A stretch of 64,000 nucleotides of DNA, taken from assembly GCA_002841695.1 (NCBI GenBank), contig PHAN01000003.1:1-64000 (forward strand), given 5' to 3'. Positions within the stretch are counted from its first letter, which is position 1; the number at the start of each line of letters is the position of its first letter. This DNA is from Elusimicrobia bacterium HGW-Elusimicrobia-1 (GTDB lineage: Bacteria > Elusimicrobiota > Endomicrobiia > PHAN01). The position numbers were made by a program, and so were the translations under genes. Under the pieces are notes generated by a model. It saw only the letters and a program-made list of their open reading frames with translations. It was not told where the DNA came from and did no database searches. Below, piece after piece: positions 28,123 through 62,824 of this stretch.

Positions 28123-29391
28123 ATGGCTAAGTTTAATCCGTGGGAAATGGCTTGCAGTCAGTTGGATACAGTGGCTCAGAAAATGGATCTCGACAAGAGC
28201 ATCCATGCCAAACTTCGCAGCTGCAAAAGGGCTCTTATCGTCTCCATCCCGATAAGGATGGACAACGGCGAAGTTCGGGTTTTCGAGGGCTATCGCGTGC
28301 AGCACAATTTGGAGCGCGGCCCGGCGAAAGGCGGCATAAGGTATCATCCCGATGTCACGCTCGACGAAGTAAAGGCGCTGGCGATGTGGATGACGTGGAA
28401 ATGCGCCGTCGTCGGAATCCCTTACGGCGGGGCGAAAGGCGGCGTCATTTGCGACCCGTCGAAGATGTCGATTTACGAAATAGAAAAACTCACCCGCCGC
28501 TTCACCTCCGAAATCTCCATAATAATCGGGCCCGAAAAAGACATTCCCGCGCCCGACGTCAACACGAACCCGCAGATTATGGCATGGATAATGGACACGT
28601 ACTCGATGAATATCGGGTATTCCGCTCCGGGTGTGGTAACAGGAAAACCCATAGAAATCGGCGGCAGCGAAGGTCGTCTCACCGCGACGGGACGCGGCGC
28701 GATGTTCGTTATCGACGAGGCGCTGAAATACAAAAAAATCAAACCGTCCGACTGCGCGGTTTCCGTGCAGGGTTTCGGAAACGTGGGAAGCGCGACGGCG
28801 CAATTTCTGCACGAACTCGGATGTAAAATCATCGGTGTGACGGACGTCTCGGGCGGACTGTTCAACAAAAAAGGCATAGATGTGCCGAAACTTATCGAGC
28901 ACGTCAAAAATGCCCCGAAGAAAAGCATCGAGGGTTTTTCGGGTGGAGATTTCGTGTCGGGCATAGAAAAGGCAAACGAGGAACTCTTCAATTTAGAGGT
29001 CGATATTCTGGCGCCTTGCGCCCTTGAAAATCAGATAACCAGCCGGAATGCCGCAAAGATAAAAGCCAAAATCATCGCCGAGGGAGCCAACGGCCCCACG
29101 ACTCCCAACGCCGACAAAATCCTGCACGACAACGGTGTTATGGTTCTGCCGGATATTCTGACCAACGCCGGCGGCGTAACGGTGTCTTATTTCGAGTGGG
29201 TGCAGGACTTGCAGTCGCACTTCTGGCGGCCGGAAGGCATAGACAAAGAACTCAAGAGAATAATGACGAAAAGTTTCGCGGACGTCATGGCCATCGCCGA
29301 GAGAGAAAAGTGCGATATGCGCCTTGCGGCGTACATACTTGCCGTGAGCCGCGTGGCGACCGCCGTAAAATTAAGAGGCGTATATCCCTGA
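28123..29391 (+). CDS. gdhA: Glutamate dehydrogenase (Glu/Leu/Phe/Val dehydrogenase family)
   Basis: 422 residues, the usual length of the hexameric enzyme. The dimerisation/active-site domain has GPAKGGIRYHPDV, the catalytic Lys in GIPYGGAKGGVICDP and PAPDVNT. The NAD(P) domain has the dinucleotide site VQGFGNVGSATA near residue 220, and the acid-rich LAPCALENQIT segment. It converts glutamate and 2-oxoglutarate/ammonia. Between two deaminase-type genes it would be well placed to use the ammonia they release. GGAGG at 28111 sets ATG 28123; an upstream in-frame ATG at 28081 lacks a binding site. Confidence 0.95.
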   Translation: MAKFNPWEMACSQLDTVAQKMDLDKSIHAKLRSCKRALIVSIPIRMDNGEVRVFEGYRVQHNLERGPAKGGIRYHPDVTLDEVKALAMWMTWKCAVVGIPYGGAKGGVICDPSKMSIYEIEKLTRRFTSEISIIIGPEKDIPAPDVNTNPQIMAWIMDTYSMNIGYSAPGVVTGKPIEIGGSEGRLTATGRGAMFVIDEALKYKKIKPSDCAVSVQGFGNVGSATAQFLHELGCKIIGVTDVSGGLFNKKGIDVPKLIEHVKNAPKKSIEGFSGGDFVSGIEKANEELFNLEVDILAPCALENQITSRNAAKIKAKIIAEGANGPTTPNADKILHDNGVMVLPDILTNAGGVTVSYFEWVQDLQSHFWRPEGIDKELKRIMTKSFADVMAIAEREKCDMRLAAYILAVSRVATAVKLRGVYP

Positions 29392-29403
29392 CAGACATAA
29401 AAA

Positions 29404-29508
29404 GCAGTGGATAGTGGTTAGTGGCGAGTGGTGAGTAAAAGCGTATTTATGGCTGCAACCGGACAGCAGAAACACACTATTCACTATCCACTAATCACTA
29501 ACCACTGC
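29404..29508. repeat. Heptamer-arm hairpin element, copy 1
   Basis: The left arm (29404-29436) is built of 7-bp units AGTGGAT AGTGGTT AGTGGCG AGTGGTG. The right arm (29476-29508) is built of complementary ACTATTC ACTATCC ACTAATC ACTAACC units. The 40-base centre, AAAAGCG...TGGCT...CAGCAGAAACA, is shared with copy 2 at 34797-34902. It lies directly before the Shine-Dalgarno of the deaminase gene at 29525. Confidence 0.88.
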
Positions 29509-29524
29509 CTTTAGGAGATTCATA

Positions 29525-30883
29525 ATGAAAACTCTCATAAAAAACGCCCTGCTCGTCGCTGTTATGGACGACAAGCGCACCAAAATACCCGGCGGGGACG
29601 TTTTGATAGAGAATAACGTCATCAAGGCGGTCGGAAAAAATCTTGCGGCCGACGGAGTGACAAAAACAATAGACGCTTCCGGCTGTGTGGCGCTGCCCGG
29701 CTTCGTCAACACTCATCATCATCTCTATCAAACGCTTACAAGAAACATCGCCGCCGTGCAGGACGCCAAATTATTCGACTGGCTCGTGCATCTTTACGAG
29801 ATATGGGCCGGCCTCGACCCTGAAATTGTTCGCGTGAGTACTCAGTTGGGCCTGGCCGAGTTGCTTCTGACGGGCTGCACGACTTCCACCGATCAGTTTT
29901 ACGTTTTTCCGCACGGACAGCCGACGGATCTTATCGACCGTCAGGTGGAAGCCGCGCGAGAAGTCGGAATGCGCTTTCAGCCGTGCCACGGTTCGATGTC
30001 GAGGGGAAAATCAAAGGGCGGACTTCCGCCCGACAGAGTTGTTCAGGAAGAGGACGCGATACTCAAAGAAAGCGAGCGGCTCATAGCAAAACATCACGAT
30101 TCAAAACCATTGGCGATGACAAGAATCTCTCTGGCGCCGTGCTCGCCGTTTTCCGTGACCAGCGAACTTTTGGTCGAAACGGCTAAACTTGCCCGCGCCA
30201 AAAAAGTCCGAATTCACACTCATCTTGCCGAAACGCTCGACGAAGAACAGTTCTGTATAGATATGCACGGGCTTAAACCACTGGCTTATATGGAAAAAGT
30301 CGGATGGATAGGCCCCGACGTGTGGTACGCCCACTGCGTTCATATGTCCGACGACGAAATAAAACTTATGGGCAAAACCAAAACCGGCGTGGCGCACTGC
30401 CCCACATCAAATCTGCGTCTGGGGTCCGGCATCGCGCCGATAAGAAAAATGCTCGACGCCGGCGTGCCCGTCTCCATAGCCGTCGACGGCTCGGCGTCGA
30501 ACGATACCTCCGATATGCTCGGAGAATTGAGACAGTGTCTGCTGGTTCACAGGATAAAATCGGGGGTAGGGTCGATGCCCGCCGAGGACGTTTTTTATAT
30601 GGCGACCCGCGGCGGCGCGGCGGTGCTCGGGCGCGACGATATTGGTTCTCTTGAAGCGGGCAAGGCCGCGGATATCGCCATATTCGACATGAAAAAAATC
30701 GGATACGCGGGAGCCCTTCACGATCCTCTGGCGGCTCTGGTTTTTTGCGGCGACTCCCACATAGCGCGGACGGTTATCGTAAACGGAAAAATAGTCGTCG
30801 ACGGCGGCCGCCTGGCTTCCATCGACGAGGAAAAATTATTCGCATCCGCCGATATTCTCTCGCGCAAATTCATAGGCGCCTGA
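29525..30883 (+). CDS. 8-oxoguanine deaminase-like amidohydrolase
   Basis: 452 residues, amidohydrolase superfamily. HxH ligands in VNTHHHLYQTLTRN, a His in RIHTHLAET, another in YAHCVHMSDDE, and the metal Asp in IAVDGSASND. The LGSGIAPIRKMLDAGV and ASNDTSDMLGELRQ segments match the 8-oxoguanine deaminase / hydroxydechloroatrazine ethylaminohydrolase group. The likely reaction is deamination of 8-oxoguanine to urate plus ammonia, with related aminopurines as alternatives. TAGGAG is the ribosome binding site, placed immediately after the heptamer hairpin element. Glutamate dehydrogenase upstream could fix or supply the ammonia. Confidence 0.85.
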   Translation: MKTLIKNALLVAVMDDKRTKIPGGDVLIENNVIKAVGKNLAADGVTKTIDASGCVALPGFVNTHHHLYQTLTRNIAAVQDAKLFDWLVHLYEIWAGLDPEIVRVSTQLGLAELLLTGCTTSTDQFYVFPHGQPTDLIDRQVEAAREVGMRFQPCHGSMSRGKSKGGLPPDRVVQEEDAILKESERLIAKHHDSKPLAMTRISLAPCSPFSVTSELLVETAKLARAKKVRIHTHLAETLDEEQFCIDMHGLKPLAYMEKVGWIGPDVWYAHCVHMSDDEIKLMGKTKTGVAHCPTSNLRLGSGIAPIRKMLDAGVPVSIAVDGSASNDTSDMLGELRQCLLVHRIKSGVGSMPAEDVFYMATRGGAAVLGRDDIGSLEAGKAADIAIFDMKKIGYAGALHDPLAALVFCGDSHIARTVIVNGKIVVDGGRLASIDEEKLFASADILSRKFIGA

Positions 30884-30921
30884 CGGACACTGTAAAAATC
30901 CTTCGGCGGCAATCCGGTAAA

Positions 30922-32079
30922 ATGAGAAAGACACTGCTTGCGCTGACTTTCATCGCTATCGCGTCGCCCTCCGGTCTTTTCGCGCAACAGACCAAGACAA
31001 CCCCCGACCTTGAGGCGATAATGGCGGATTCGGCGCCGTCGCGGCAAATACGCGTAATAGCGTCGATGTCTGCGCGCTACGCCTTTCGTCCGTTCAGCGT
31101 TTCCGTGCCGGAGCAAAGGGAGCAGATACGCCTTAGGCGCGTCGAGGAACTCAAGGAATTCGCGTCTTCCGACCAGGCCGGCGTTTCGGGATATCTTTCT
31201 AAAGCCGCCGCCGGCCAAAAAGCGTCCGATGTGCGATCCAACCGCATAAAAAATCAAATAGCTTTCAGCGCGACCGCCGACGTCATAAAAGATCTTGCCC
31301 GCCGCGATGACATTGCGCTGATATTTCCCTACGACGAAGTCAAGTTCGCCGAGGAGAATGTAACCGACGCTGAACTTAATATAATCGACTATACCAGAGA
31401 TTTCGACGCGGCTTTTTCGCGCTTGTCCGACGCAAATCCCACCGCCCGCAGGAACGCCATACTTTTCATAGCCCGTCAGCAGACACCCGAATCGCTCAAG
31501 GCCATAATAGGCGTGCTTTACGACGACGACGTTCTCGTCCGGCGCACGGCCGTCGAGGCGCTGGGACGGCTTGAAGGCGCGTGGCCGTCGGCGCGGGCGG
31601 CCGTCGCGGAATTCCTGAAAAAAGAAACCGACGTGGGCGCCAAGATATCAGCCATCCGCGCCGCCGGTGACCTCGGCGGGACGTCGTCGGTGGAAACGCT
31701 CAAAAAACTCGCCGTCGACCCTTACGCGATTTATCGTTCCGAGGCAGTCAAAGCTCTCGGCAAAATCAGTCCGCAAGGTATTTCGTCTGTCGTGGTTCCG
31801 GCAATTTCCGACGAGGCCGAAGGCGTCAGAATTGCCGCTATGGAGGTCGCCGGGCGTTTGCGCATTGCCGCCGGCCTTCCGGGCATACGCGCCAACCTGT
31901 CGGATCCGTCCACGATTGTGCGCCGCGCCGCCGCATGGGCGCTGGGACAGACCGGAGGAACTTCCGACGCGGATACACTTATTAAAATGACGACATCCGA
32001 CCCTGAAGATTATGTCCGCGTGGAAGCGGCAAACTCCGTGGAACTTATACGCAGCCGCATAAAATCGCAGGCGAAATAA
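30922..32079 (+). CDS. Exported HEAT-repeat protein
   Basis: 385 residues. Signal peptide (RKTLLALTFIAIASPSGLFA). The middle has the inhibitor-I9-like phrase NRIKNQIAFSATADVIKDLARRDDIALIFPYDEV, as in subtilase propeptides. The last 230 residues are PBS-lyase-type HEAT repeats (VLVRRTAVEALGRLEG, AKISAIRAAGDLGG, IYRSEAVKALGKI, IVRRAAAWALGQTGG). It is probably a periplasmic protein-binding scaffold. No protease domain is attached, so the I9-like part would act as a binding or chaperone module. Its stop overlaps the next start by one base (TAATG). Confidence 0.82.
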   Translation: MRKTLLALTFIAIASPSGLFAQQTKTTPDLEAIMADSAPSRQIRVIASMSARYAFRPFSVSVPEQREQIRLRRVEELKEFASSDQAGVSGYLSKAAAGQKASDVRSNRIKNQIAFSATADVIKDLARRDDIALIFPYDEVKFAEENVTDAELNIIDYTRDFDAAFSRLSDANPTARRNAILFIARQQTPESLKAIIGVLYDDDVLVRRTAVEALGRLEGAWPSARAAVAEFLKKETDVGAKISAIRAAGDLGGTSSVETLKKLAVDPYAIYRSEAVKALGKISPQGISSVVVPAISDEAEGVRIAAMEVAGRLRIAAGLPGIRANLSDPSTIVRRAAAWALGQTGGTSDADTLIKMTTSDPEDYVRVEAANSVELIRSRIKSQAK

Positions 32080-32366
32080 TGACGCAAAAACATAAAATAA
32101 CCGTCAAATTTTATCCTCCGTTGAAGGAAACTTTGGGCGTCGGCTCGGTGACCATAACCGCCCGGGACGCCGGCGAGGCCATTGAGATATTAAGCGGCCG
32201 CTTCGGTAAAAAATTTACGTCGGAAGTGCTCGAAGACGACGGCAGCGTCAAAAATTACTTCATACTTCTTCTCGACGGAAAAGCCGTCGACCAGAAAAAT
32301 CCCGCCGCCTCGAAGTTCGTCGAAGGTTCCGTGCTTCACGTGCTGCCGCCCGTGGCCGGAGGATAA
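32079..32366 (+). CDS. MoaD/ThiS-family ubiquitin-like sulfur carrier
   Basis: 95 residues with a beta-grasp pattern (KITVKFYPPLKETLGVGSVTI, ...VEGSVLHVLPPVAGG) ending in the essential Gly-Gly. Such proteins are adenylated and thiocarboxylated at the C-terminal Gly and deliver sulfur for molybdopterin, thiazole or other cofactors, or act as modifiers. No MoaE, MoeB or ThiF gene is in the window, so the pathway cannot be named. It is coupled to the HEAT-repeat gene by a one-base overlap. Confidence 0.87.
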   Translation: MTQKHKITVKFYPPLKETLGVGSVTITARDAGEAIEILSGRFGKKFTSEVLEDDGSVKNYFILLLDGKAVDQKNPAASKFVEGSVLHVLPPVAGG

Positions 32367-32368
32367 AA

Positions 32369-32405
32369 GCAGTGGTTAGTGGCGAGTGGATAGAAAAAGC
32401 AGTGG
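32369..32405. repeat. Degenerate heptamer-arm repeat (left arm only)
   Basis: GCAGTGGTTAGTGGCGAGTG continuing with GATAG is the left arm of the elements at 29404 and 34797, followed by AAAAAGCAGTGG. The core and right arm are missing. It fills the short gap between the MoaD-like and CoA-binding genes. Confidence 0.7.
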
Positions 32406-32414
32406 AGGGCGAAA

Positions 32415-32810
32415 ATGGATATTCCGCAGATACTTAAGACCGCGCGAGTGATAGCCGTGGTGGGGCTTTCGCCGAAAGCCGACCGCCCGTCTAACGTCGT
32501 TGCCGCGTATCTTAAAAAAGCCGGATATAAGATTATTCCGGTCAATCCCGGTCAGACGGAAATCCTCGGCGAAAAATGCTATAAGTCCCTGCTCGATGTG
32601 CCCGAAAAAATCGACATAGCGGACGTTTTCAGGCGTCCGGAAGAAGTTCCGGCCGTTGCCGCCGACGCCGTAAAAATAGGCGCCCGCGTGTTGTGGCTGC
32701 AGGAAGGCGTAGTCAGCCAAGAGGCCTCGACGCTGGCGCGCGCGGCCGGCCTTGAAGTCGTGATGGATCGCTGTATACTCAAAGAGCACAGCGGAATTTT
32801 CGGCGGATGA
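32415..32810 (+). CDS. CoA-binding Rossmann domain protein (YccU-like)
   Basis: 131 residues. The CoA-binding fold of the succinyl-CoA synthetase alpha type is seen in ARVIAVVGLSPKADRPSNVVAAYL, then GYKIIPVNPG and RVLWLQEGVVSQEA, ending in VVMDRCILKEH. These stand-alone proteins are widespread; the cellular role is not established. It is followed after 47 bases by a phosphodiesterase gene. Confidence 0.9.
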   Translation: MDIPQILKTARVIAVVGLSPKADRPSNVVAAYLKKAGYKIIPVNPGQTEILGEKCYKSLLDVPEKIDIADVFRRPEEVPAVAADAVKIGARVLWLQEGVVSQEASTLARAAGLEVVMDRCILKEHSGIFGG

Positions 32811-32857
32811 ATGAGCGCTTGCTCCGCCGGAAGGATCGTCGAACGGAGAGGTAACCC

Positions 32858-33391
32858 ATGAAAATAGGAGTCGTCACCGACACGCACGAGAACGTTCCGC
32901 GGATAAAAAGAGCCGTCGAGTTTTTTAATTCTTCCGGCGTCGAACTCGTTTTGCACGCCGGCGACATAATATCGCCCATTATGACGGATCATTTCAAAAA
33001 ACTCAAAGTAAAAATGCTCGGCGTTTTCGGCAATAACGACGGCGAAAAAAATCTCTGGCGGATACGCTCCGCCGAATTTCCGAACGGTCTGGAACTCAGG
33101 GAACGCTACGCCGAAGTCGACGCGGGCGGCGCGAGAATTCTTGTCATCCACGAGCCGTACCTGCTGGATTCCATCGTCGCCGGCGGCAAGTACGATTTTG
33201 TGATATACGGACACACCCACGAAACGGATCTGCGCCGCGAAGGTCGCACGGTCGTGCTCAACTGCGGGGAAACGTCGGGGATAATGAGCGGACAATCAAC
33301 CGCGGGCGTAATAGACCTTGCCGCCGGGACAGTCGAAGTCACGGATCTTGATACCGGAACGCGGGTCGCCTATCTTGAATATGGCCGCTGA
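32858..33391 (+). CDS. YfcE-family metallophosphoesterase
   Basis: 177 residues, single calcineurin-like domain. Metal ligands are in VVTDTHEN (DxH), HAGDI (GD), FGNND (GNxD/H), HEPY and YGHTHE (GHTH). Family enzymes hydrolyse phosphodiesters in vitro and usually use Mn2+. Its end overlaps the next gene by 11 bases, giving a YfcE - flavodoxin - AmrS string in one transcript. Confidence 0.92.
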   Translation: MKIGVVTDTHENVPRIKRAVEFFNSSGVELVLHAGDIISPIMTDHFKKLKVKMLGVFGNNDGEKNLWRIRSAEFPNGLELRERYAEVDAGGARILVIHEPYLLDSIVAGGKYDFVIYGHTHETDLRREGRTVVLNCGETSGIMSGQSTAGVIDLAAGTVEVTDLDTGTRVAYLEYGR

Positions 33392-33941
33392 AATCATCGC
33401 TATTTTGGCATCGCCCCGCCGCGGCGGTAATTCGGAATTTCTGCTGCGCGCCGCTGTCGGGCGTTTCCCTTCCGAAAAAATAAAAATAATCCGGACGTCG
33501 TCGCTGAAACTGTCGGCCTGCGAAGCGTGCGGATGGTGCGACACGCGCGGCGAGTGCCGCATAAAGGACGACTTTCAGAAAGTGTCGGGCGACATTCTTG
33601 CCGCACGCGCGGTGGTCGTGGCGTCGCCCATATATTTTTACGGGTTGCCGTCGAAGTTTAAGGCGCTGATAGACCGCTCTCAGTGTCTGTGGGCGCGGAA
33701 GTATCTTTTAGGGAAGCAGCCCGCGCCGTTGCGCCCGGCGTATACGATTCTGGTCGGGGCCACAAAAGGCGCAAAGCTTTTCGACGGAGCCCTTCTTACC
33801 CTCAAATATTTCTACGACGTTTACAATCTCAAGTCCGCCGGCTCGGCGCTCGTAAGAAACGCCGACGGAAAAAAAGCGGTCGCGGCTGATAAAACGGCCA
33901 TTAGATCCGCGGCGTCCCTCATTAAATATCTCTCAAAATGA
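33381..33941 (+). CDS. Flavodoxin-fold NAD(P)H-dependent FMN reductase
   Basis: 186 residues. The FMN phosphate loop ASPRRGGNSE is near the N-terminus. It is followed by a Cys motif CEACGWCDTRGEC, a DDFQK segment and SPIYFYGLPSKFKALIDR, which is typical of iron-sulfur-containing or NQO-like flavodoxin reductases. It probably transfers electrons to a nearby or general acceptor. ATG 33381 is chosen because the domain starts at once. It overlaps the phosphoesterase by 11 bases and the radical-SAM gene by 4. Confidence 0.88.
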   Translation: MAAEIIAILASPRRGGNSEFLLRAAVGRFPSEKIKIIRTSSLKLSACEACGWCDTRGECRIKDDFQKVSGDILAARAVVVASPIYFYGLPSKFKALIDRSQCLWARKYLLGKQPAPLRPAYTILVGATKGAKLFDGALLTLKYFYDVYNLKSAGSALVRNADGKKAVAADKTAIRSAASLIKYLSK

Positions 33942-34795
33942 AAGAAGCGCTTTATTACGAGAAAATGCCCGACGGGTCGGTAGTTTGCGGCCTTTGTCCT
34001 CACGGCTGCCGCATAAAGCCCGGCGCGTCCGGAATTTGTCTGGCGCGAGCCAACAGGGGCGGCGTTCTTGAATCGCTTGCCTACGGACGGCTTGCGGCCG
34101 TCCACATGGACCCGATAGAAAAAAAGCCGCTGTATCACTTCCACCCGGGTTCGATGATATTGTCCGTAGGGACAGGCGGCTGCAACTTAAAATGTGCGCA
34201 CTGCCAGAATTGGGAACTCGCCCGCACCTCGCCGGAAGATTTATCGTCGAGCGAACTTTCGCCGCGGGAGGCGCTTGAACTTGCCCGCCGCATGGGTTCA
34301 ATCGGTATAGCGTATACGTACAACGAGCCGCTTATGAACTTCGAGTGGACGCTTGAAACATCCCGTCTGTTGACGTCGGCGAATATGAAAAACGTACTTG
34401 TCACAAACGGTTTTATCAATGAGAAACCTTGGAGAGAAATTCTCGAATACATAGACGCCGCCAATATCGATCTTAAGGCGTTCGACGACGGCTTCTACAA
34501 AAAAATCTGCGGCGCGCGTCTGGCGCCGGTTTTGCGCAGCATAGAAATAATGGTGAAATCCGGACGGCACGTGGAAGTGACGTATCTTGTAATACCGGGA
34601 CAAAACGACGACCCGTCGAAGGTGGAAGAGGCGGCTTCGTGGCTGGCCGCGCTCGACAAGAAAATTCCGTTTCATCTGAGCCGCTACTTTCCGAATTACA
34701 AATCGAGCGCGCCTCCCACGCCGATGGCCGCGCTTGAGGCCGCCAAAGCCGCCGCGCAAAAACATCTTGAAAGGGTTTATCTGGGCAATGTTTAA
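33938..34795 (+). CDS. amrS: AmmeMemoRadiSam-system radical SAM enzyme (AmrS-type)
   Basis: 285 residues. An N-terminal Cys motif CGLCPHGC precedes the radical-SAM motif GGCNLKCAHCQNW (CxxxCxxC form with the usual spacing) near residue 85. It then follows the pyruvate-formate-lyase activase-like layout with YTYNEP, VTNGF and NIDLKAF. This is the AmrS protein that usually occurs with AmmeMemoRadiSam partners A and B; neither partner is in this window. The target is not known for the family. ATGA overlap with the flavodoxin gene suggests that protein may be its electron donor. Confidence 0.9.
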   Translation: MKEALYYEKMPDGSVVCGLCPHGCRIKPGASGICLARANRGGVLESLAYGRLAAVHMDPIEKKPLYHFHPGSMILSVGTGGCNLKCAHCQNWELARTSPEDLSSSELSPREALELARRMGSIGIAYTYNEPLMNFEWTLETSRLLTSANMKNVLVTNGFINEKPWREILEYIDAANIDLKAFDDGFYKKICGARLAPVLRSIEIMVKSGRHVEVTYLVIPGQNDDPSKVEEAASWLAALDKKIPFHLSRYFPNYKSSAPPTPMAALEAAKAAAQKHLERVYLGNV

Positions 34796-34796
34796 A

Positions 34797-34902
34797 AGAA
34801 GTGATTCGTGGTTAGTGAACAGTGGATAGTAAAAGCGTCTGTTTGGCTATAAGCAGGCAGCAGAAACAGACTAACCACTATTCACTAACCACTATCCACT
34901 GC
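34797..34902. repeat. Heptamer-arm hairpin element, copy 2
   Basis: The left arm (34797-34830) carries GTGGTTAGTGAACAGTGGATAGT and the right arm (34871-34902) CTAACCACTATTCACTAACC continuing with ACTATCCACTGC. The core AAAAGCGTCTGTTTGGCTAT...GGCAGCAGAAACA matches copy 1 at 29404-29508. As in copy 1, it ends just before a ribosome binding site (AAGGAGG), here of the DUF4321 gene. Confidence 0.88.
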
Positions 34903-34922
34903 ATAAGGAGGTTGCGGAAGTT

Positions 34923-35186
34923 ATGAGCAAAAATGTTATTTATTTCATTATCGTAATCGTCGTCGGAGCGTTGCTGGGAACTTTCATAGGGGAGTTTCTT
35001 GCCATTGTGATGCCGGCGGGTAACGCCAGGGATCTTTTCGCCAAGGGCATCGAGGCGGGGCTTCATCCCGCGCGGCTTGATTTAAGAGTCATAGAGCTGA
35101 CGTTCGGATGTATATTTAAATTCAATGTAACGTCCGTCGTCGGCATTGTCGCCGCCGCCTACATATTCCGTGGTATCTCGAAATAA
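34923..35186 (+). CDS. DUF4321 small membrane protein
   Basis: 87 residues with two membrane segments, YFIIVIVVGALLGTFIGEFL and FNVTSVVGIVAAAYIFRGI, and between them the conserved amphipathic part DLRVIELTFGCIFKFN. This matches DUF4321, a family of unknown function found in several diderm and firmicute lineages, often next to maf, as here. Confidence 0.85.
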   Translation: MSKNVIYFIIVIVVGALLGTFIGEFLAIVMPAGNARDLFAKGIEAGLHPARLDLRVIELTFGCIFKFNVTSVVGIVAAAYIFRGISK

Positions 35187-35814
35187 AAAACTATCGAGAA
35201 ATGTCTCGGCGCCGCGCGAAAAGCGTTCGCCGGAGATAATTCTGGCGTCGGCATCGCCCCGTCGCAGGGAAATACTCGGGATGCTCGGCATACGCCACAA
35301 AGTAATGGCCTCACGGGCGTCCGAGGACTCTGTCGAAACCGATCCGCGCCGTCTGGTCAAGGAACTCGCCGCCCGCAAAGCGGCGGAAGTCGCTCGACGT
35401 CTTAAAACCCGCAAGTGTTTGGTGATAGGCGCCGATACCGTCGTATATTTGAAGGGTAAAGTTATCGGTAAGCCGCGGTCTTCGGGCCATGCCCGCGGTA
35501 TATTGAAGAGTTTGTCGGGCAGGGTAAGCGAAGTTTATACGGGTGTCGCTGTTCTGGACACCGCGACCGGCAGAATGAAAACCGGCTCGGCGGTCAGCGA
35601 GGTTACCATGCGCCGCCTTACCGGCGCCGAAATAAAGTCGGCGGCGAGCCGCCATATGGACAAGGCCGGAGCTTACGCCGTACAGGAAAAAAACGACGCT
35701 TTCGTCAAAAAGATAAAAGGGGATTATTATAACGTGGTGGGACTGCCGGCGGGATTGCTGATTTCTATTCTTGAGAGCTTCGGTGTTGTCGTCAGCCCTT
35801 CCAAAAAACTTTGA
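35170..35814 (+). CDS. maf: Maf-family nucleotide pyrophosphatase
   Basis: About 214 residues. The Maf motif ILASASPRRREIL comes near the N-terminus, then KAAEVARR, the catalytic Asp region IGADTVVY, the STYTG-like segment VSEVYTGV, and DKAGAYAVQE with DYYNVVGLP at the end. It hydrolyses non-canonical or methylated NTPs to monophosphates. No in-frame ATG precedes the domain; GTG 35170 is my choice and TTG 35146 is possible. Either start overlaps the DUF4321 gene. It converges with, and overlaps by 23 bases, the SurA-like gene on the other strand. Confidence 0.9.
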   Translation: MVSRNKKLSRNVSAPREKRSPEIILASASPRRREILGMLGIRHKVMASRASEDSVETDPRRLVKELAARKAAEVARRLKTRKCLVIGADTVVYLKGKVIGKPRSSGHARGILKSLSGRVSEVYTGVAVLDTATGRMKTGSAVSEVTMRRLTGAEIKSAASRHMDKAGAYAVQEKNDAFVKKIKGDYYNVVGLPAGLLISILESFGVVVSPSKKL

Positions 35815-61657: not shown

Positions 61658-62824
61658 ATGAGCGAAAAAAAATTTTCTGACACCCCCGCCTCCGCAAAAA
61701 CGTCGAATTATCGCGGGCTTATAGAACGTTACCGCGATTATCTGAGCGTTTCCGGCAAGACGCCGGTGGTCACGCTTCTTGAGGGCAATACACCTCTTAT
61801 CCGCGCGTCAAACCTTGCCGCCGAAATCGGGTTTTCCGGCGAGATTTACCTTAAATACGAAGGCATGAATCCCACCGGCTCCTTCAAAGATCGCGGAATG
61901 ACGATGGCCATATCCAAGGCCGCCGAAGCCGGATCCTCGACGGTAATCTGCGCTTCCACGGGCAATACTTCGGCTTCCGCGGCGGCCTACGCCGCGCGGG
62001 CCAAAATGCGCTGCGTGGTGCTCATCCCCGACGGAGCCATCGCTCTGGGCAAACTTTCGCAGGCGCTGGTTCACGGCGCGGAGGTCTTCGCCGTAAGCGG
62101 TAACTTCGACGAAGCGCTCAACATAGTGCGGGAACTCTCGGAAAAATATCCGCTCACGCTGGTCAATTCCGTCAATCCTTACCGCATCGAGGGGCAGAAG
62201 ACGGCCGCCTTCGAGATAATCGAGACGCTCGGCCGCGCGCCGGACTTTCACTTTATACCGGTGGGCAACGCCGGAAACATCACCGCTTACTGGAAGGGCT
62301 ACAAAGAATACGCCGACGGGAAATTCTTCATAGCCGCCGCTTCTGCGCCCTATCCCCTATCCACTATCCACTATCCACTGCCTCATATGATGGGCTTTCA
62401 GGCCGAAGGCGCCGCGCCCATCGTAAGGGGCGCGCCGGTAGCCAAACCTGAGACCGTCGCGACCGCCATAAGAATAGGAAACCCCGCCTCGTGGCGGCAG
62501 GCCGTCGAGGCCAGAGACGAGTCGCTCGGCGCGATAGACATCGTGACCGACGACGAAATTCTGGCCGCCTACAAACTGCTGGCTCGGTCGGAAGGCGTGT
62601 TTTGCGAACCCGCCTCCGCCGCATCCGTGGCCGGCCTGATCAAATACAAAAAAATCATTTCCGATTCCGGCGGCTCCGACGGCAAAGATTCCCCGGTCGC
62701 CGTCTGCACCCTTACCGGCCATGGTCTTAAGGACCCCGACTGCGCCGTCAAGAATTCCTCCCGTCCAATGTCGGTTCCCTGCGACGCGGCGAAAATCGTT
62801 TCTCTTTTGGGGATAAAATCATAG
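61658..62824 (+). CDS. thrC: Threonine synthase, with repeat-derived insertion
   Basis: 388 residues, PLP fold type II. PLP-Lys in [48 protein letters not shown] and [13 protein letters not shown]. It converts O-phosphohomoserine to threonine. Between [13 protein letters not shown] and MMGFQAEGA, where relatives have a short link, the protein reads [15 protein letters not shown]. This is encoded by 62350-62381, one arm of the dispersed heptamer element. The insertion is in frame and the gene is otherwise intact, so the loop is presumably tolerated. It starts four bases after the acyltransferase gene. Confidence 0.95.
62350..62381. repeat. Heptamer-arm repeat inside thrC (right arm only)
   Basis: CTATCCCCTATCC followed by ACTATCCACTATCCACTGCC is built of the same 7-bp ACTATCC units and the same CCACTGCC end as the right arms at 29476-29508 and 34871-34902. 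It is read in frame within threonine synthase. Confidence 0.85.

Follow-up and report, generated by a model that had tools for sequence, protein, structure and literature searches.

Two intergenic hairpins in a 64,000-nt stretch of Elusimicrobia bacterium HGW-Elusimicrobia-1 (positions 1 to 64,000 of contig PHAN01000003.1, hereafter the window) raise the question of which of their parts is kept as the hairpins change, and whether they belong to a mobile element. An earlier note on the window had described them as copies of a defined mobile element in which a conserved 40-base core is held between arms of 7-bp units. Both full hairpins were found at the positions named there: element 1 (29400..29508, + strand) consists of a left arm of four AGTGGNN units plus AGT (29406-29436), a core of the long type (29437-29475) and a right arm of four units (29476-29506), with GC/GC at its flanks, and element 2 (34800..34900, + strand) of a left arm at 34800-34830, a long core at 34831-34869 and a right arm at 34870-34900. 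The answer that we favour, with a probability of about 0.4, is that the hairpins belong to a family of non-autonomous, dispersing palindromic elements that end in inward-facing arrays of a short module.

Constancy lies in the arm module and not in the core

The arms are built from the module AGTGR-NN with a period of 7, which forms a direct run in the left arm and is present in inverted form in the right arm. The alphabet of units is small, with R being G or A and NN mainly TT, AT or CG. In the complete assembly (2.06 Mb in 25 contigs, phylum Elusimicrobiota; positions are given below by contig, as in C7:6.3 kb), a pattern of three units, AGTGRNNAGTGRNNAGTGR, had 154 matches (82+72) compared with 1+0 for its backwards control, and a four-unit pattern had 65+58 matches compared with none. 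Together with the strong folding of elements 1 and 2 (z about -7 each; about -6 to -9 in the five elements tested), this excess shows that the hairpin family is not a product of chance. The inward-facing arms are terminal inverted repeats like those of miniature inverted-repeat transposable elements and often have AAAGGC/GCCTTT outside them. The first DNA search scored 40 of 67 candidates and the matches listed per pattern cover 100 places, so that some elements of this genome lie outside the set described here.

The exact 40-base core is rare, with three pattern matches in the genome, one of which is a look-alike inside a gene. When substitutions were allowed, 12 rows could be aligned; since four of these are halves at contig ends, they represent 10 to 12 loci. 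The earlier note had reasoned that a core confined to the window would leave only two chance copies, and this genome-wide check found the core to recur. Four contig ends (C12, C21, C23 and C25) fall within identical long-core copies, so the assembly is broken by the hairpin family. Most hairpins, moreover, carry other loops, some of merely 5-7 nt, and the 40-base core is one among several loop families between arms of like kind. It is therefore the arm module and not the core that is constant, contrary to what had been proposed: at C7:6.3 kb and C2:161.9 kb, the left arms are identical and the cores clearly different. The proposal that arms change by turnover of units was confirmed directly: between C7:6.3 kb and C3:34.8 kb, the right arm differs by one whole heptamer.

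Gain and loss of whole units would also be expected if the hairpins were heptamer satellites that arose where they stand, grew by polymerase slippage and were kept where the mRNA tolerates them, with no transposition; slippage has been proposed for heptamers in two earlier papers (PMC4679880, PMC4692102). AGTG strands would then be tolerated after stop codons and CACT strands, which are free of GTG/ATG starts and of Shine-Dalgarno-like runs, before start codons, while gene conversion would spread variants. We rank this explanation closely behind the module-array element and regard it as possible, if doubtful. An identical compound left arm occurs together with the same core at three unrelated loci, which requires copying and is difficult to reconcile with growth in place. 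The likeness of neighbouring units speaks on both sides: identity of adjacent units (lag 1) was no higher than after shuffling (z of -0.6 in this genome, -3.5 in foreign genomes and 0.0 in viral contigs), against slippage, whereas identity at lag 2 was in excess in the foreign arrays (z of 4.0 and 4.6, compared with 1.5 in this genome), in its favour.

The arms always face inwards

Among 119 arrays in the fetched stretches of this genome, adjacent arrays of opposite orientation no more than 60 bp apart stood in the order AGTG-then-CACT in 35 cases and in the reverse order in none. No CACT-first pair within 60 bp was found among 588 arrays at foreign loci either; as these loci were selected by AGTG-first patterns, this zero is the only part of the foreign result that is independent of the choice (identical sequences were not merged here or in the foreign placement counts given below, and were counted once in the tests of arm complementarity). 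In viral contigs, 60 stretches were AGTG-first and none CACT-first. The order is also kept between convergent genes (11 of 81 viral hairpins and 23 of 117 genome hairpins), where selection on the mRNA near start codons provides no explanation, and this counts against slippage. In its favour, single arms too are polar relative to genes: read on the coding strand, AGTG arms lay nearer to the upstream stop in 18 of 19 cases and CACT arms nearer to the next start in 10 of 13, a tally that leaves out two CACT arrays in open reading frames (ORFs) and eight unclassed arms.

Other four-letter cores in the same first-arm form were less frequent in the viral contigs (ACTG 1, AGTT 10, GATG 7 and TGAG 9, one of the latter lying in the AGTG frame) than AGTG (60), and AGTG hairpins with a period of 8 numbered zero in these contigs. 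AGTG is strongly favoured, yet other heptamer hairpins exist, and the preference fits a recognition module. Loci L296-L310 of the viral contigs contain heptamer hairpins of other units (TGAGGCY, GATGAAG), which have the purine-first form too.

Opposing arms match in the module and not in the variable letters

With the register fixed at the loop, the opposing NN letters agreed in 0.308 of 78 pairs from 27 hairpins of this genome, compared with 0.338 when units were shuffled within arms and 0.351 when they were drawn from other elements. The corresponding agreement was 0.467 in hairpins of foreign genomes (0.443 after within-arm shuffling) and 0.244 in viral ones (0.263). When the best register was taken instead, the hairpins of this genome had 34 matches vs 41.1 expected (standard deviation 2.6), that is, fewer, and their folding energy was no better than with shuffled unit order. 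Because the opposing NN letters are unmatched, the arms are neither copies of one another nor under selection for full pairing; the five-letter module and its spacing are the parts retained. Templated fold-back synthesis of one arm from the other was rejected, as the NN matches of this genome did not exceed those of shuffled units in the fixed or in the best register.

The same result bears on the explanation that the hairpins are mRNA elements, which in operons would protect or cut the transcript or uncouple translation of the next gene and would be selected for that. The strong folds of the five elements agree with such a role, but the order of the units is not matched for pairing, the hairpins of this genome pairing slightly worse than shuffled ones, many arms are single, and a scan of positions 29000-35500 of the window against Rfam was without match up to E 1. 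We consider a selected mRNA element unlikely. A role as an all-frame stop behind genes was considered as well.

Sites in a sister species are empty or hold other units

Nine sites of this genome were compared with G001, a genome of the same genus, in which the matching pieces were 67-86% identical. G001 has no array at three of the nine (32369, 34797 and C7:46890), a lack of conservation that also speaks against an mRNA element. With the core at 10 to 12 loci and the compound left arm common to three unrelated loci, these empty sites bear out one half of the claim of a defined mobile element, namely a dispersed, mobile-looking family, but not the other, a core as its constant part. At two further sites (C3:75299 and C7:40030), G001 holds other repeats. 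In G001 C23:2900-3050 and C36:900-1000 (L279, L280), unrelated repeats stand where this genome has heptamer hairpins, and it looks as if gaps were reused by different repeat families.

At site C3:72551, G001 combines an AGTG-like left arm with a right arm of AGAAGTA units, and at C7:47302 its arms are both made of AGRRRYR units, in each case with a period of 7; the lag-7 identity of these arms was reached by 5 and 6 of 2000 shuffles, respectively. Unit families seem to be replaceable at one site while the period of 7 and the inward arms persist, as though the design lasted and the letters changed. An array inside a PALP-enzyme gene (see below) is also present in G001 in degenerate form and is therefore older than the species split. 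At site 29404, both flanking genes carry arrays of 8-bp units in G001, where the junction is broken by contig ends and by another neighbour. Units of this 8-bp family, GTGANAAN, are of another form than an AGTG hairpin of period 8; they had 52 matches in G001 vs 2 for the control and none in our genome, and the three-unit AGTG pattern had 11 matches in G001 vs 10 for the control.

The hairpins are scattered over distant genomes

The hairpin pattern was found in 10 of 340 genomes of the phylum, the backwards control having none among the matches listed. It occurs 41 times in the genome of the window, 87 times in G149, 19 in G160, 13 in G198, 8 in G195, 6 in G144, 4 in G151 and once in each of three others, while in G019 the three-unit pattern had 38 matches vs 4 for the control. 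Occurrence is patchy even within genera (one of three species in g54, two of four in g56). GTDB contigs contain at least 116 matching stretches, where about 0.03 were estimated for random sequence; among the matches listed (80 of at least 116) are Acidobacteria, Bacteroides, Chloroflexi, Planctomycetes, Nostoc, Selenomonadaceae and others. Parabacteroides sp. 52 and Bacteroides nordii are two of the carriers. Plasmid and phage records gave no match in BLAST searches with one element each and the low-complexity filter on.

A proposed dispersing element that ends in module arrays

The recurrence of the core and of compound arms at unrelated loci, the empty sister sites, the fixed polarity, the unmatched NN letters of opposing arms, the preference for AGTG and the patchy occurrence are the reasons why we favour a dispersing palindromic element. 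Its ends would be arrays of a short directional module (AGTGR-NN, every 7 bp) that always face inwards, and the segment between them would be a passenger, whether it is the 40-nt core, a longer stretch or any of several short loops. Such an element would be copied, partly or wholly, into gene gaps; its arms would later grow or shrink by whole units, and in the long run a unit family might be exchanged for another while period and polarity persist. The module with its period and polarity, the dispersal of identical compound arms, the empty sister sites and the loss and replacement of units are observations, whereas we infer a DNA-processing enzyme, a copy mechanism and any benefit or cost to the host. 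The enzyme would recognise the ends of the element, either as a module array or as a folded single strand, much as transposases read arrays at transposon ends.

Several points weigh against this reading. A Y1_Tnp gene was present in 15 of the 16 relatives tested, whether or not they had hairpins, and no transposase is linked to the family. No transposase-bearing, autonomous element was found between inward arrays in the fetched loci, the whole genome not having been searched for such a parent, and no target-site duplication was visible at the sites compared with G001, the DNA of which is too diverged to reveal one. Unit families can be swapped at a site, so that a single sequence-specific enzyme is not an easy explanation, and the polarity of single arms towards genes counts here as well.

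The parS site of pSM19035 consists of 7-10 contiguous 7-bp WATCACW repeats, which bind one dimer per heptad and of which four or more are needed (PMC9499535), and the hairpins could likewise be binding-site arrays for an omega/ParB-type ribbon-helix-helix protein, serving segregation or regulation. The unit AATCACT fits this consensus, but most units (AACCACT, ATCCACT, CGCCACT) do not, the main family of G001 has 8-bp units, and dozens of dispersed sites with variable cores are unlike a centromere, which makes this explanation very improbable. We regard as very improbable that the hairpins are repetitive extragenic palindrome (REP) doublets forming hairpins (REPINs) that are moved by a REP-associated tyrosine transposase (RAYT, a Y1 transposase). 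Inverted pairs, location in gene gaps, patchiness and the one Y1_Tnp gene of this genome at C2:100030 are in line with it; however, the repeats on either side of that gene are of another type, with GTAG motifs, G001 has 8-mer hairpins and no Y1_Tnp, G019 has none either, and the presence of Y1_Tnp does not track the hairpins in 16 further genomes. A RAYT as mover thus found no support. The Y1 transposase gene itself (PF01797, C2:100030-100272, L185) lies between runs of GTAG-containing GGGGCTTGTCCCC repeats, which form a REP family of their own, separate from the heptamer hairpins.

Relation to known heptamer repeats

Heptamer repeats in gene gaps are already known as a kind. The short tandemly repeated repetitive (STRR) sequences of cyanobacteria are short tandem heptamers in gene gaps, as are the AGTG arrays. 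Among the intergenic periodic repeats of prokaryotes, tandem heptamers are the most abundant, and they lack a clear function (PMC6344855). A GTGATTA heptamer reported from Helicobacter is quoted in a later paper. Xanthomonas genomes contain GGGAATC arrays with 70 and 75 convergent pairs per genome and a strand preference near ORFs, the G-rich strand lying on the coding strand downstream of them, and the Nostoc heptamer unit is GGGGA(C/T)T (PMC4692102). These repeats share with the AGTG hairpins the tandem 7-bp units in variable number, the intergenic location, the convergent pairs and the same polarity; they differ in their unit and are discussed as G-quadruplex formers, and the available text of that report contains no shared core, arm complementarity test or opposite-order count. 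AGTGR-NN units lack the runs of three G found in GGGAATC and GGGGAYT, so that the AGTG hairpins are a variant of the intergenic heptamer kind and do not belong to the GGGAATC sequence family.

The TAACTGA direct repeats of Beggiatoaceae, Cyanobacteria and Bacteroidetes stand before start codons and differ between strains in 7-nt steps (PMC4679880). Like our arrays, they are heptamers of gene gaps with the ACT strand before starts, unit insertions and deletions, a patchy distribution and absence from the gaps of relatives, but they have an AGTT-type unit and are nearly all single direct arrays, with one inverted pair in 170 sets. All units counted are AGTG and not AGTT, which sets them apart from TAACTGA (TCAGTTA); AGTT hairpins are a separate group. 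The P6b stem of the Nostoc trnL intron, with Class I (TDNGATT) and Class II (NNTGAGT) units, resembles the hairpins in having 7-nt units in both arms, one-sided unit insertions and deletions and replacement of a whole class in place, but is a single intron locus and not dispersed (PMC4476775). REPINs and GTAG/CGTC-tagged REPs are likewise dispersed inverted pairs in gene gaps with patchy occurrence, but lack tandem 7-bp arms (PMC3116915, PMC3733652). Neither their tag nor a RAYT linkage was encountered here; the aligned copies showed no GTAG or CGTC tag at their arm ends. Five exact arm strings were looked for in papers, and 19 papers contain one of them, with listed titles that concern other subjects. 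In searches of the open-access PMC literature, we did not find a description of the AGTG family, of the zero count of the reverse order, of the non-complementarity of arms or of unit replacement at orthologous dispersed sites.

A bolder and rather doubtful extension is a single cross-phylum class of mobile palindromes, defined by their architecture instead of their sequence: purine-rich directional modules, repeated every 7 or at times 8 bp and facing inwards, would enclose free passenger DNA. An enzyme that reads period and polarity would let unit families swap at one site and would have given rise to the heptamers of Xanthomonas, the STRRs of cyanobacteria, the TAACTGA repeats and the P6b stem of trnL alike; the swappable families would then include AGTG, AGTT, TGAG, GATG, AGRRRYR and GTGANAAR as well as GGGAATC and TAACTGA from the literature. 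Other units at the same sister sites, the absolute polarity and arms that are complementary only in the constant module narrow the possible mechanisms and count against both fold-back copying and selection for a full stem. The old question about heptamers, insertion or slippage, with a reader of the module or none, thereby becomes testable.

Placement of the arrays and genes of the window

A census of 265,133 bp of stretches picked around pattern matches, the window included, as a sample and not the whole genome, gave 62 array clusters. Only two cluster midpoints fall in ORFs, although 88.3% of the bases are coding (genes were called with a home-made hexamer scorer in these stretches and as longest ORFs at foreign loci). 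Fifty-three clusters lie between co-directional genes, two in convergent and two in divergent gaps and three at contig edges. This distribution and the median of 5 nt from the upstream stop to the start of the array would suit an mRNA element, but the co-directional preference says little by itself, since 178 of 186 gaps in the fetched stretches are co-directional. Foreign hairpins were outside long ORFs in 93 of 117 (genome) and 51 of 81 (viral) cases, compared with 13% of random positions. The gaps between genes may be the places where insertions survive.

In the window, element 1 lies between a glutamate/leucine-type dehydrogenase gene and an amidohydrolase gene and is directly followed by the Shine-Dalgarno sequence AGGAG of the latter (29513..29517, + strand; ATG at 29525). 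Element 2 separates a radical SAM gene from a DUF4321 gene, the Shine-Dalgarno sequence of which, AAGGAGG (34905..34911, + strand; ATG at 34923), again follows directly. This proximity, pointed out in the earlier note, holds for both window copies but is not a general rule, the distance from array to called start ranging from 2 to 762 nt (median 32) in the 53 co-directional clusters. The partial copies mentioned in the same place are both present: a left arm alone (32371..32407, + strand; three units, then AAAAAGCAGTGGAG) sits between two genes, and a CACT-type heptamer array (62350..62379, - strand) is translated inside the PALP-enzyme (thrC-like) gene at 61658-62824 (PF00291).

Other interspersed repeats of the GTCATTCTGAGCGAAGCGAAGAATC and GTCATTCCCG.. 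types occur in the same gaps (L036 near C2:147.0 kb and C2:149.6 kb; L041). In five genes (L036, C2:136600-151500; C2:103 kb; C2:158 kb; C13:43 kb), a CACT array is translated in one frame, and an AGTG array follows the stop of the upstream gene. The CACT array forms the end of an apparent signal peptide, F-T-I-H-Y-x-L ... L-x-A-A (FTIHY.L.TNH..AA), and one of the five genes has a weak outer-membrane transport match. Arrays that are read as protein within such apparent signal peptides would represent one route of these repeats into genes.

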